From a virus: 49,995 nucleotides of DNA. The notes under the pieces are model-generated. The model ran no database searches, was not told the origin of the DNA, and worked only from the letters and a program-made list of their open reading frames with translations. Shown piece by piece: positions 4,761-38,013 of the stretch; positions within the stretch are counted from its first letter, which is position 1; every line of letters begins with the position of its first letter. A program made the position numbers and the translations under genes. The stretch spans positions 1 to 49,995 of IMG/VR virus record IMGVR_UViG_3300048930_000674, one strand, 5' to 3'.

Positions 4761-5048
4761 ATGGCAAGTTCGATCCCCACCTTCACCAAGGACGCGAGCG
4801 AGAGGCTCGACTACACGGTCGACTGGACCGCGTGGCTCACCGGCGGCGATACGATCGCAGCGGCGCCCACCTGGACCGTGCCGGCCGAGCTGACGAAGGA
4901 CGCCCAGGGGCATGACAGCACCCGCGCCACCGTCTGGCTGACCGGTGGCGTACCCGGTCGGACCTACACGGTGGAGTGCCGCATCACCACCGTCCAGGGG
5001 CGGATCGCCGAGCGGGCGTTCGTGCTGGCGGTCGTCGACCGGCGCTGA
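4761..5048 (+). CDS. Phage fibre-tail adaptor-like protein
   Basis: A 95-residue single-domain protein. The pattern LDYTVDW..WL.GGDTI, then TWTVP, then ATVWLTGG..G..YTVECRITT..GR..ERAF.L.V is that of the small Ig-like phage fibre-tail adaptor family. The start ATG 4761 lies 3 bp after the previous stop, so it is probably translationally linked to the giant repeat protein. It probably helps attach a fibre to the virion. Family recognition is by eye; the partner is inferred from adjacency. Confidence 0.75.
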   Translation: MASSIPTFTKDASERLDYTVDWTAWLTGGDTIAAAPTWTVPAELTKDAQGHDSTRATVWLTGGVPGRTYTVECRITTVQGRIAERAFVLAVVDRR

Positions 5049-5054
5049 TCGGCG

Positions 5055-6257
5055 ATGACCCCGAAGCAGTTCGCGAGGCTGCCGCCCAAGCGCGCGATCG
5101 CGTACATGCGCGGCCGGAAGGTGGCGCTGCCGGACGACTACTACTCGCGCGCCGGCACCTATCGGCAGCAGGCCTTCTCGATCGCCGGACTCGCGAGCCT
5201 GGACGCGCTGCAGGCGGTACTGGACAGCCTGAACGACGCGCTACGACGTGGCGAGTCGTTCGCCGACTGGAAGCGCAGCGCCGTCGACCAGCCCGAGCTC
5301 GGGGTGCTGCCCAAGCACCGCCTCGAGAACATCTTCCGCACCAACCTGCAGGGCGCCTATGCCCGCGGCACGTACCAGCGCCAGGCCGAGGTTGCCGACC
5401 GCCGGCCGTACCTGATGTACGACGCCGTCAACGACTCGCGCACCCGCCCTAGCCACCGCGCGATGGACGGCTTCATCGCCCGGCACGACGACCCGATCTG
5501 GGCGAAGTGGCGCCCGCCTGTCGGGTACCGCTGCAGGTGCGCCGTGATCTCGTTGACAGAAGCGCAGGCCCGCGCCCGAGGCCTGGCCGAGCAGGTGCGG
5601 CCGCGCGTCGAGCCGGATCCGGGGTGGGACTACGACCGGTCCGCCGGGATCCAGCCGGGCATCGATCGGGCAGTGCGCCGTCGCAAGGCGCAGTGCGGCC
5701 CGCTCCTGTTCGCGGGGGGCGCTCCGCAGCCGCCGATCTGGTGCCGCGGCGTTGGCAAGGAGATGCTCGAGCGCTACGCGCTGGATCGCAACAAGCCGAT
5801 GCCCGAGCCGCGGCCTGCGCCGGGTCCGCTGCTAACCGAAGGCCAGGACGAGCGCTTCTACCTGACGGAGTTCATGCAGGCGTTCGGGGCGCAGTGGAAC
5901 GAGACGGTCGAGCTGACGACGCTCGGGCCGGGGTTGACCCTCGAGGTGTCGCGGGAGCTGTTCATCGTTCACGGAAGCGGCAAGTCGAAGTTGGACAAGC
6001 GCGGCAGGGCCGTGTACGCGGCCTGGATCGCGGCAGCGATTCGCGAACCGGATGAGGTCTGGGTGACGAACGACGTGCATGGCGCGCGCTTGAACCTGCT
6101 CGCGCGCTTTCGGTTCGGGGGACGACTCCACGGGATCGTGGCCGTCTTCAAGAAGCGGGGGGACGTCTGGGTCGGCTGGTCCGGGTTTCAAGCCGAACGA
6201 GAATCCTATCTCGCCGGGCTGAGAAACGGCGAACCATTGCACCGACGGGACGCGTAG
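5055..6257 (+). CDS. Minor head protein (Mu gpF-like) with C-terminal PBECR2 nuclease domain
   Basis: A 400-residue protein. Residues about 1-175 are a Mu gpF-type head morphogenesis domain, with the helical segment HRLENIFRTNLQGAYARGTY, the motif SRTRPSHRAMDG and a final GYRCRCAVISL. Residues about 265-390 match the PBECR2 class of phage-borne Barnase/EndoU/Colicin/RelE-like domains: ERFYLTEFMQAFGA, a strand ending in LFI, DEVWVTND, LLARFRF, and WVGWSG near the C-terminus. The first domain joins portal and capsid during head assembly. The second is predicted to be an RNase or tRNase delivered with the DNA or acting in the cell; that activity is inferred from the family. Decayed sequence resembling its C-terminus follows. 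Confidence 0.88.
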   Translation: MTPKQFARLPPKRAIAYMRGRKVALPDDYYSRAGTYRQQAFSIAGLASLDALQAVLDSLNDALRRGESFADWKRSAVDQPELGVLPKHRLENIFRTNLQGAYARGTYQRQAEVADRRPYLMYDAVNDSRTRPSHRAMDGFIARHDDPIWAKWRPPVGYRCRCAVISLTEAQARARGLAEQVRPRVEPDPGWDYDRSAGIQPGIDRAVRRRKAQCGPLLFAGGAPQPPIWCRGVGKEMLERYALDRNKPMPEPRPAPGPLLTEGQDERFYLTEFMQAFGAQWNETVELTTLGPGLTLEVSRELFIVHGSGKSKLDKRGRAVYAAWIAAAIREPDEVWVTNDVHGARLNLLARFRFGGRLHGIVAVFKKRGDVWVGWSGFQAERESYLAGLRNGEPLHRRDA

Positions 6258-35449: not shown

Positions 35450-35652
35450 GGGCACCGCTCCCAGTACTGGCCGTCGTCGAGCTCGCGGTCGGCGTAGTCG
35501 TCGTCGTCGCCGTAGCTCCACTCGGCGTACCCGTCGTCGCCGGCCTCGTCCTCGTCGTCGTCCGCGGCCTCGGGCGTGCGCGGGTCGAGCGGGTCGCCGT
35601 CGCACGCCGGCCAGGACGCCTCGTCCCCGAAACCTGGGACCGGGCCGCTCAC
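35446..35652 (-). CDS. Very acidic small protein (possible DNA mimic)
   Basis: A 68-residue protein with GTG start 35650-35652 (GTGA overlap). Residues about 26-62 are mostly Asp/Glu with Tyr and Trp (EAADDDEDEAGDDGYAEW, then DDDDYADRELDDG). The net charge is strongly negative. DNA-mimic anti-restriction proteins look like this, but so do other small acidic proteins; the function is speculative. Confidence 0.58.
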   Translation of the reverse strand: MSGPVPGFGDEASWPACDGDPLDPRTPEAADDDEDEAGDDGYAEWSYGDDDDYADRELDDGQYWERCP

Positions 35653-35903
35653 GCCGCGCTCCGCATCGCCAGGCCGCCCGAGCCACACAGGGCCTCGAGC
35701 CGGTCGTTCACGGCGCGCAGGCGGCTCACCGCCTTCGCGTGCACCGACTGCCCGTCCACCGCCTTCCAGTCCGGATGCGACAGCACCAGCACCGCCACCG
35801 CGATGTCCGCGCGCAGGCCCTCCAGCGTCTCGCGGTCCGCACCCGCCACAGCAAGTCCACCCTCGACCACCGCTTCCTCCTCGGCCCCGGTGAAGCGGGG
35901 CAT
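35649..35903 (-). CDS. First gene of the PL operon, probably leaderless
   Basis: An 84-residue protein. Its ATG (35901-35903) lies only 6 nt after the PL -10 box, so the message should begin at or next to the start codon. The sequence TCCTCC before it is not a ribosome site. The helical C-terminal half has AVSRLRAVNDRLEALC. No family recognised; its place first in the operon suggests an immediate early role. Confidence 0.65.
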   Translation of the reverse strand: MPRFTGAEEEAVVEGGLAVAGADRETLEGLRADIAVAVLVLSHPDWKAVDGQSVHAKAVSRLRAVNDRLEALCGSGGLAMRSAA

Positions 35904-35909
35904 GGAGGA

Positions 35910-35938
35910 AGATTAGCGAGCGCTATACGTCATGTCAA
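35910..35938 (-). promoter_or_regulatory. PL-like leftward early promoter
   Basis: On the minus strand TTGACA (35933-35938), 17-nt spacer, TAATCT (35910-35915): a near-consensus sigma-70 promoter. Operators flank or cover both boxes. It drives the operon from 35903 down to the integrase. Confidence 0.9.
35914..35925. promoter_or_regulatory. Repressor operator OL1-like
   Basis: TAGCG-AG-CGCTA, a perfect 5-bp dyad inside the PL spacer and overlapping the -10 box. It matches the sites at 37673, 37688 and 37712. Confidence 0.85.
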
Positions 35939-35950
35939 TAGCGGCCGCTA
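35939..35950. promoter_or_regulatory. Repressor operator OL2-like
   Basis: TAGCG-GC-CGCTA directly upstream of the PL -35 box, centred 25 bp from the first operator. Confidence 0.82.
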
Positions 35951-36244
35951 AATTTCGCGACGCGCCCCCGCCCCTCTGTGACCCGCCGGCGTCGCGGGGG
36001 CGGCGGGGGAGAGGTGGACCGATCGGGAAGTGATGAGCGCGGGCGGCTCGAAGGGGCGCGCGCAGGGGTGGCCAACAGGTCGCCGCCGCGGCCAAGCGCT
36101 GAATACCGCCACGGCTCCCGTGATATCGTCACGTTCCAGCGTTCGTCGCGACGTAGCATAGGTTCCTGATGCACTGCATGATCGCGCCGGCCTCACGCAG
36201 GCATCAGTTTTGCCTGCTGCGGCAGAATGATTCGGGGGAAACCA
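35951..36244. other. Non-coding region with several small dyads ahead of the DUF2335 genes
   Basis: No credible gene. Inverted repeats are seen at 36119-36133 (CGTGA-N5-TCACG), 36169-36179 (ATGCACTGCAT) and 36197-36217 (GCAGGC-N9-GCCTGC). None has a T tract. They may be regulatory sites for the rightward gene pair that follows, but no clear -35/-10 pair is evident. Confidence 0.4.
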
Positions 36245-36475
36245 GTGAGCCGCTTGATGCGTATGGTCGCGGGGTTCGCGTTGACTGCGGACGCCTATGC
36301 TCGGCCGCGGCGCTACCCTGCAGCGACGGGTCCGGCCGATGACGCGCGCGCTCTCGCTTCGGATTACCGTGCGGTCGGCGATTCGCTTCGCCGGGCGTTG
36401 AAAGAAAGTGGCTCGGCATACCCGAATCCAGGCGCAGTCGAAGGACGGCGAGCAGTTCGACGTCACCGCGCATGA
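36245..36475 (+). CDS. Small protein paired with the DUF2335 gene
   Basis: A 76-residue protein. GTG 36245 follows GGGGG at 6 nt; an ATG at 36227 lacks a ribosome site. It contains ADDARALASDYRAVGDSLRR, a pattern typical of small phage proteins. The 3' 68 bp overlap the DUF2335 gene in another frame. It lies in the immunity region pointing away from PL, so it may be expressed in the lysogen. Confidence 0.55.
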   Translation: MSRLMRMVAGFALTADAYARPRRYPAATGPADDARALASDYRAVGDSLRRALKESGSAYPNPGAVEGRRAVRRHRA

Positions 36476-36824
36476 ATCGGATAGCCCGCTGTTGCCGGTT
36501 GCGCAGCTCGAGCGGCTACATGGCTTCAGGCCCGACTTGGTCGACTGGGTCATCGAGAACACCCGCGAAGAAGCGGTTGCCAGACGCAAGCGAACTGCCC
36601 GCGTCGATGCCTTTGTCCTGATCGAGCGCGTTGGCGGTCTGGTCGCAGGATTCTTGATCGCGTTCGCCGGGATCGTGGCCGCAGCGTATCTAGCGATCAA
36701 CGGTCAACCTTGGGTGGCGGCGGTGCTCGGAGGCGGTACGTTGGTTTCGATCGTCACTGTGCTCGTGACCGGGCGCAAAGCGCCTGCAGCTCCCGAGCAG
36801 GGCGAGCAGAAGAAGACCAAGTAG
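36408..36824 (+). CDS. DUF2335 family membrane protein
   Basis: A 138-residue protein with GTG start. Residues about 28-60 (LLPVAQLERLHGFRPDLVDW, then VIENTREEAVARRKR) precede two membrane helices (VGGLVAGFLIAFAGIVAAAY and AVLGGGTLVSIVTVLVTG) and a Lys-rich tail. This is the DUF2335 layout. Located beside the repressor on the opposite strand, it is a typical lysogen-expressed cargo gene; superinfection exclusion is a possible role by location only. Confidence 0.8.
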   Translation: MARHTRIQAQSKDGEQFDVTAHESDSPLLPVAQLERLHGFRPDLVDWVIENTREEAVARRKRTARVDAFVLIERVGGLVAGFLIAFAGIVAAAYLAINGQPWVAAVLGGGTLVSIVTVLVTGRKAPAAPEQGEQKKTK

Positions 36825-36849
36825 CGGGTCCGGGCGCTGGAAGTGCCGT

Positions 36850-37662
36850 TCACGCCACCTCGCCCCGCCAGGCGAACACCACGCGCCCGAGCACGGCGAA
36901 CCGGTCGCGCTGGGCTGGCTCGACGCGCTCGGTCTCGTACTCCCGGTTGCTCGAGATCAGCAGCCACGCCCCGTCGGACTTGCGCTGCACGCGCTTGACG
37001 AGGATGTCCTCAGGCCCGCGCAGAAGGTAGATGCCATCCTGCCCGACCGACTGCACGCCGGTGTCGATCACCAGCATGTCGCCGTCGTCGAACGTCGGGC
37101 GCATCGAGTCGCCGAACGCCGTGACCAGCCGCAACGCCTGCAGACTGGTGATCCGCGCCGCCCCCAACTGCCGGCGCAGGTTCTCCTCGTTGACGCGCAC
37201 CAGCGTCACAACCTCGTTGCCGTCGTCCATGCCGCCTCGCCCCATCCTCGGGTACACACCCTCGTGCTTCTGGAGCCACATCTCACCCGGCCGCAGGCTC
37301 TCCAGTTGAGCTTCCTCGCCCGACTCGCCCGGTCGGGCGAGCGCGCCTCGCTCGATCGCAACGACGGCCGCGCCTGAAGGGGTCGGCGACGGGCCGGGGA
37401 TCACCTCGGTGACGGAACGTTCCGCGGCGGCGGCGCTTTCCGTGATCTCGGCAGTGTCGAGCCAGCCGGGGGGCATGTTCAGTGACCGCTCGATGTGGCG
37501 AGCGCTTTCCTCCGTCATGGTCCGAACCCCGGTGAACCACTGACTCACCTGGGAAGGGCTGCGCTTGATCGCGTTCGCGAGAAGGCGTGCATTGCCCTCG
37601 AAGCGTTCGTCGCGGAGTCGCTCGAGACGGGCAAGACGACGCTGTCGAACCTCTGCAGTCAT
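36850..37662 (-). CDS. CI-type phage repressor with S24 peptidase domain
   Basis: A 270-residue repressor. Residues about 24-64 form the XRE DNA-binding domain (NARLLANAIKRSPSQVSQWF). Residues about 150-265 form the S24/LexA-type domain, with Ser186 in AFGDSMRPT and Lys223 in ILVKRVQR as the dyad. I see no Ala-Gly or Cys-Gly dipeptide in the linker before Ser186, the usual self-cleavage site. It should keep the prophage silent by binding the five TAGCG-N2-CGCTA operators at PL and PR. Its ATG lies 6 nt after a TAAACT box, implying a leaderless PRM message. Confidence 0.92.
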   Translation of the reverse strand: MTAEVRQRRLARLERLRDERFEGNARLLANAIKRSPSQVSQWFTGVRTMTEESARHIERSLNMPPGWLDTAEITESAAAAERSVTEVIPGPSPTPSGAAVVAIERGALARPGESGEEAQLESLRPGEMWLQKHEGVYPRMGRGGMDDGNEVVTLVRVNEENLRRQLGAARITSLQALRLVTAFGDSMRPTFDDGDMLVIDTGVQSVGQDGIYLLRGPEDILVKRVQRKSDGAWLLISSNREYETERVEPAQRDRFAVLGRVVFAWRGEVA

Positions 37663-37674
37663 GGGGGGAGTTTA
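37663..37674 (-). promoter_or_regulatory. PRM-like promoter -10 for the repressor gene
   Basis: On the minus strand TAAACT (37669-37674) is followed by six C residues and the repressor ATG. No convincing -35 box is present, as is usual for promoters that need activation. The operator at 37673-37684 overlaps the box, so repressor can control its own synthesis. Confidence 0.6.
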
Positions 37675-37684
37675 GCGATGGCTA
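37673..37684. promoter_or_regulatory. Repressor operator next to PRM
   Basis: TAGCG-AT-GGCTA, one mismatch to the dyad. It overlaps the PRM -10 box; centre 15 bp from the next site. Confidence 0.78.
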
Positions 37685-37687
37685 ACA

Positions 37688-37699
37688 TAGCGAGCGCTT
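37688..37699. promoter_or_regulatory. Repressor operator overlapping the PR -35 box
   Basis: TAGCG-AG-CGCTT, one mismatch. It overlaps the first bases of TTGACG (37698-37703). Confidence 0.8.
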
Positions 37700-37727
37700 G
37701 ACGCGGAGATATAGCGCACGCTAATCT
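37698..37727 (+). promoter_or_regulatory. PR-like rightward early promoter
   Basis: TTGACG (37698-37703), 18-nt spacer, TAATCT (37722-37727). The -10 box is identical to that of PL. The cro ATG follows 10 nt later, leaving a leader of only a few bases. Confidence 0.88.
37712..37723. promoter_or_regulatory. Repressor operator in the PR spacer
   Basis: TAGCG-CA-CGCTA, a perfect dyad overlapping the PR -10 box, in the same relative position as the operator inside PL. Confidence 0.85.
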
Positions 37728-37737
37728 CCGGGCCACG

Positions 37738-38013
37738 ATGCAGCTCTCCGAACACATCAAGCGGAATCCCGGCGCCGGCACGCGCATCGCCAGGGAACTG
37801 GGCGTGAGCCTCTCCTACCTGTCGCAGATGGCTTCCGGTCATCGGCCCATCCCGGTGAAGACCGCAGTGCGGATCGAGGTGCTCACGGATGGCGCGGTGC
37901 CGCGTTGGGACATGCATCCCGACGACTGGCACCGAATCTGGCCGGAGCTGATCGACGCGCCCGGGGCGCCGGCGGTGCCGGCCGAGGGCGAGCGGCAGGA
38001 GAGGGCGGCGTGA
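37738..38013 (+). CDS. Cro/YdaS-like antirepressor
   Basis: A 91-residue protein, divergent from the repressor. Residues about 14-50 (GTRIARELGVSLSYLSQMASG, interrupted after ELG for length) form a helix-turn-helix of the Cro/YdaS type, followed by PIPVKTAVRIEVLTDG. The C-terminus is Pro/Ala/Glu-rich. It is the first gene of the PR operon and should repress PRM to favour lytic growth. Nearly leaderless message, without a Shine-Dalgarno sequence. Confidence 0.83.
   Translation: MQLSEHIKRNPGAGTRIARELGVSLSYLSQMASGHRPIPVKTAVRIEVLTDGAVPRWDMHPDDWHRIWPELIDAPGAPAVPAEGERQERAA

Follow-up and report, generated by a model that had tools for sequence, protein, structure and literature searches.

The window analyzed here (the whole stretch of 49,995 nucleotides, positions 1 to 49,995 of IMG/VR virus record IMGVR_UViG_3300048930_000674) contains a region which is very probably the lysis-lysogeny switch of a lambda-type temperate phage (probability roughly 0.93). 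The first-pass annotation had described an immunity region with twin PL and PR architecture, a reading upheld by the identity of the genes, by the operators and operator spacings of a close relative (locus L012) and by the operators present at the PL promoter throughout the family. The switch has the design of CP-933P, but its operator is another one, and its repressor is longer and of the S24 type.

The genes of the region are the following.

35649-35903, minus strand: 84-aa protein encoded first in the leftward (PL) operon; its ATG (35903) follows the PL -10 at a distance of 6 bp, and neither Pfam nor PHROG gave a match
36408-36824, plus strand: membrane protein of PHROG 3996 (8e-24), filling the cargo slot that separates PL from the repressor
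36850-37662, minus strand: CI-like repressor with an N-terminal helix-turn-helix (HTH), a disordered linker and a C-terminal S24 domain (Pfam S24, 3.1e-16; PHROG 4 repressor, 3.5e-29)
37738-38013, plus strand: YdaS-family Cro of 91 aa (Pfam PF15943, 1.6e-10; PHROG 35, 2e-14)

The repressor gene is divergent from cro and both lie between a leftward operon of recombination genes and a rightward operon of replication genes. Along the phage, tail genes, an endolysin, a leftward integrase, an exonuclease and RecT are followed by PL, the repressor and cro, and then by a replication initiator, RusA and the portal. Megablast with the first 25 kb of the window gave no relative among 50,697 phage records.

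In the AlphaFold model of the repressor the HTH helices are confident and the linker disordered, and confidence in the C-terminal S24 domain is only partial or moderate; the C-terminal model nevertheless matches the C-domains of LexA, UmuD and lambda CI (Foldseek), and the domain carries the GDSM serine and the VKR lysine. The third helix, PSQVSQWFT (about residues 36-44), is the recognition helix. Inspection of the linker by eye revealed neither an Ala-Gly nor a Cys-Gly cleavage pair, and induction by SOS-dependent self-cleavage is therefore uncertain. As for Cro, its best solved relative is the YdaS protein of CP-933P (sequence E 4e-13), to which the structure aligns (8co2, Foldseek) with 48–49% identity, 1.3 A and a TM score of 0.87–0.89 normalised by target.

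Two cargo genes had been proposed between PL and the repressor. One of them is the PHROG 3996 gene at 36408-36824, which is convergent with the repressor gene; the other, an 82-aa open reading frame at 36227-36475, has no family match in Pfam or PHROG. In lambda the slot between PL and the repressor is occupied by the rex genes, and a role of the PHROG 3996 protein in superinfection exclusion is a guess from its position.

The promoters below were recognized in the sequence, and PL and PR are arranged in the same way in L012.

35910-35938, minus strand: PL, TTGACA (35938-35933), 17-bp spacer, TAATCT (35915-35910)
37698-37727, plus strand: PR, TTGACG (37698-37703), 18-bp spacer, TAATCT (37722-37727)
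37669-37674, minus strand: putative PRM -10, TAAACT, 6 bp before the repressor ATG (TAACCT at this place in L012)

Five copies of the dyad TAGCG-N2-CGCTA are superimposed on these promoters.

35914-35925: operator OL1, TAGCGAGCGCTA, exact, with 2 bp in common with the PL -10
35939-35950: operator OL2, TAGCGGCCGCTA, exact, adjoining the PL -35
37673-37684: operator OR3, TAGCGATGGCTA, one mismatch, with 2 bp in common with the PRM -10
37688-37699: operator OR2, TAGCGAGCGCTT, one mismatch, with 2 bp in common with the PR -35
37712-37723: operator OR1, TAGCGCACGCTA, exact, with 2 bp in common with the PR -10

The centers of OL1 and OL2 are 25 bp apart, those of OR1 and OR2 24 bp and those of OR2 and OR3 15 bp; about 1.8 kb separates the PL and PR clusters. 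The first-pass annotation had listed the dyad as occurring five times, and all five coordinates were right, although only three copies are exact and two carry one mismatch. The end of OR2 shares its TT with the PR -35, which accounts for the single mismatch of this site. Also sustained were the statements that at both promoters one operator overlaps the identical -10 box TAATCT (OL1 and OR1) and another touches the -35 (OL2 and OR2). The overlap of OR3 with a PRM-like -10 is a further feature, absent from that annotation; thus, at PL, PR and PRM alike the end of an operator doubles as the start of the -10. TAATCT is a weak -10 that shares only 3 of the 6 bases of TATAAT, and since it fails the -10 threshold, a generic promoter scan of the window reported nothing at PL or PR. 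PRM has no recognizable -35 and neither OR1 nor OR2 is centered near -42 relative to the predicted leaderless start of the repressor, which makes lambda-style activation of PRM by the repressor doubtful.

In a genome of 70% GC a GC-rich palindrome might cluster by chance. At one mismatch or fewer the motif has five sites in the 49,995 bases vs. 0.9–1.3 expected from Markov simulations, and three exact matches were found where 0.00–0.02 are expected in the window. The motif at two mismatches, on the other hand, is no commoner than chance predicts (23 found, 27 expected), a scan which is uninformative and which is the one point on the side of chance; against it, all five matches at one mismatch or fewer fall on promoters. 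All 7168 combinations of a 5-base half-site with a spacer of 0–6 bases were also enumerated across the window. Only TAGCG-N2-CGCTA places five sites in the two promoter intervals, and none of its sites lies elsewhere in the 50 kb. The second-best combination, TTAGC-N4-GCTAA (4 of 4), reads this dyad one base further out. This enumeration, together with the conservation of sites and spacings in L012 described below, refutes chance clustering, whose probability is negligible.

L012 is the closest relative of the switch, with 64% identity in Cro and 59% in the first 80 residues of the repressor, and its recognition helix is identical. Its operators correspond to those of the window as follows.

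4431: OL1 counterpart, one mismatch
4456: OL2 counterpart, 25-bp spacing kept
equivalent place: OR3 counterpart, degenerate (TAGCAAGTGCTA), 15-bp spacing kept
5955: OR2 counterpart, identical site
5979: OR1 counterpart, 24-bp spacing kept

The overlaps between promoters and operators match those of the window, and L012 likewise has a PHROG 3996 membrane protein (4803-5222, 1.6e-24) in its cargo slot. It had been stated that loss of the sites in phages with the same repressor HTH would speak against the operators; in L012, the single close relative found, the sites are maintained. Across viral and genome collections and 399 genomes, L012 (which appears again as L043) was the only relative with an identical recognition helix. 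Scans with the repressor HTH also gave two distant relatives, L041 and L042 (39–40%), and the TAGCG-N2-CGCTA operator is absent from their gaps.

A search of viral contigs for tandem exact dyads yielded seven loci, among which only L007 (7127-7162) resembles a switch promoter, repeating the operator word and the operator/-35/operator/-10 scaffold of the window in the arrangement TAGCGTACGCTA-TTGACT-...-TAGCGACCGCTA-TACT; the other six have no such promoter. The L007 locus sits just after a serine recombinase gene at the end of its contig, which stops before any repressor. In the 399 genomes of the order of L041 the tandem-dyad pattern had one match. Two loci among the distant HTH relatives, L057 and L058, encode repressors with PAQISQW helices and carry upstream TAGCG-like dyads with a 3-base center (TAGCGTTACGCTA and TAGCGTGTCGCTA); judging from these sequences, they are possibly a spacing variant of the TAGCG specificity.

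The recurrence of this arrangement was examined in the window, 24 IMG/VR loci and two phages from GenBank, which make 27 phages sharing this type of Cro. The operator was deduced solely from the 100 bp preceding cro and then sought within 4 kb on both sides. It could be inferred from the cro/repressor gap in 25 of the 27 phages, and further copies numbered 29 on the repressor side vs. 2 on the cro side over equal distances. A leftward promoter lies between the operators in all 13 far clusters inspected, 11 of them with TTGAC. The gap-only finder failed for L022 and L039 and found no far sites in several other phages; in L012 it chose a longer version of OR3 and so missed the known PL sites. 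The operator words vary by lineage, for instance TTTAG-N6-CTAAA in L015, L016, L018, and L021 and AAGCGA-N-TCGCTT in L019 and L028, and the former group agrees with the footprinted half-site of CP-933P, GTTTAGTAA (PMC8630535). The recurrence of operators on the repressor side therefore makes twin PL and PR clusters a family trait: they are common in the YdaS-Cro phage family, each lineage having its own palindrome.

Co-variation of operator and recognition helix among relatives had been put forward as a check, and the gap sequence does track the HTH. Over 19 phages, the similarity of the repressor N-termini correlates with the 6-base words shared by the gaps (r = 0.74, permutation p = 0.0002), as does that of the Cro proteins (r = 0.62), while equal-length control DNA starting 150 bp into cro shows no relation (-0.23 for the repressor, -0.21 for Cro). 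Shared ancestry of the module partly confounds this correlation, which therefore supports, and does not prove, the reading of gap words by the HTHs.

These data bear on the idea that the dyads serve another regulator, a host factor or a different phage protein, with repressor and Cro binding elsewhere. Tandem TAGCG-N2-CGCTA pairs in some contigs without a visible repressor or cro would fit it; however, the operator sequence changes with the HTHs of repressor and Cro across phages, L012 retains sites and HTHs together, and the sites lie on PL, PR, and PRM as in the footprinted switch of CP-933P (PMC8630535), so that a separate regulator is very unlikely.

The CP-933P circuit of Escherichia coli O157:H7 (PaaR2, YdaS, YdaT; structures 8co2 and 8c7k) has been footprinted and reporter-tested (PMC8630535). 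There, the CI-like PaaR2 and YdaS bind overlapping operators on PR and PRM, both proteins repress PL, and a toxin-antitoxin pair lies between PL and the repressor (PMC8630535). The window shares with it a homologous Cro (49% identity), the divergent repressor and cro genes, operators on PR, PRM, and a distant PL, and extra genes between PL and the repressor. The -35 and -10 of PL are identical to those of PR in CP-933P (PMC8630535), whereas in the window only the -10 is identical. Other differences concern the operator, which in CP-933P has another half-site and more repeats (16 inverted repeats, 6 operators aligned), the repressor, PaaR2 being short (His-tagged mass 15.1 kDa) while that of the window has an S24 domain, and the cargo, which in CP-933P is the toxin-antitoxin pair.

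The name of Pfam PF15943, "Bacterial toxin YdaS," and the reported toxicity of Rac YdaS (PMC5700373) might suggest instead that repressor and Cro form a toxin-repressor or toxin-antitoxin module whose palindromes merely autoregulate it. The YdaS of CP-933P, in contrast, works as a Cro and not as a toxin (PMC8630535), and Jobling argues likewise for Rac, where YdaS and YdaT would be Cro and CII rather than toxins (PMC5917428); the distant PL cluster over recombination genes also fits a phage switch, and a toxin module is extremely improbable. By the published CP-933P work the Pfam name of this Cro family is a misnomer.

The phage switch proposed here resembles that of lambda (CI, Cro, OL/OR) in gene order, in its S24-domain repressor, in having operators at both PL and PR, three of them at OR, and in neighboring sites about 24 bp apart. 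The OL and OR clusters of lambda are about 2.3 kb apart, compared with 1.8 kb in the window, and the OR sites of lambda are roughly evenly spaced. In the window there are five sites instead of six (two at PL), the dyad is shorter, only 15 bp separate OR2 from OR3, Cro belongs to the YdaS type, the lambda-like geometry for PRM activation is lacking and the operators have no sequence kinship to those of lambda. The immB region of the telomere phage PY54 (PMC4488713), compared by its layout and regulation, is similar in its divergent repressor and cro genes; it differs in its Cro, which binds one operator only, OR3, and presumably leaves its own promoter unrepressed (PMC4488713).

Leaderless transcripts may be a further point in common. 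The cI and cro mRNAs of PY54 are both leaderless (PMC4488713), as is the repressor mRNA of CP-933P (PMC8630535), and a leaderless start is predicted for the repressor of the window. Here, the distance from the -10 to the start codon is 6 bp for the PL gene, 6 bp for the repressor and 10 bp for cro. In most of 19 cro genes examined the -10 ends 6–8 bp before the start codon, and a Shine-Dalgarno-like word occurs in only one of the 19. It is an evenly balanced proposition that the switch is fully leaderless, the mRNAs of the repressor, cro, and first PL gene starting on the initiation codon or a few bases from it, and that it is built on a fixed scaffold which recurs throughout the YdaS-Cro phage family and in which operator word and HTH are replaced as a pair, giving rise to many separate immunity groups. 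The scaffold would consist of an operator, TTGAC, an operator fused to the -10 and a start codon 6–8 bp further on.

The switch probably works as follows. In the lysogen, dimers of the CI-like S24 repressor would bind TAGCG-N2-CGCTA at four operators, OL1, OL2, OR1 and OR2. Together these cover the -10 and the -35 of both PL and PR, which would silence the two early operons, the recombination genes leftward and cro with the replication genes rightward. OR3 lies on the promoter of the repressor itself, and by analogy with lambda and CP-933P Cro would prefer this site, halting repressor synthesis in lytic growth. The sites OR2 and OR3, only 15 bp apart, are therefore unlikely to be filled together. 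Binding of both proteins to the predicted operators and the order of filling are inferred, and the layout would permit cooperativity or DNA looping between the PL and PR clusters. The operator/HTH co-variation, a comparison of sequences, suggests that the dyad sets the immunity specificity.

The design is well known and the accepted picture of lambdoid switches is unchanged. What is gained for this phage is a predicted immunity specificity that is directly testable. In addition, a single promoter scaffold is combined with many operator/HTH pairs in the window and 26 other phage loci. With this natural data set the recognition code of the repressors and their YdaS-type Cro proteins can be tested; immunity groups could thereby become predictable from sequence.
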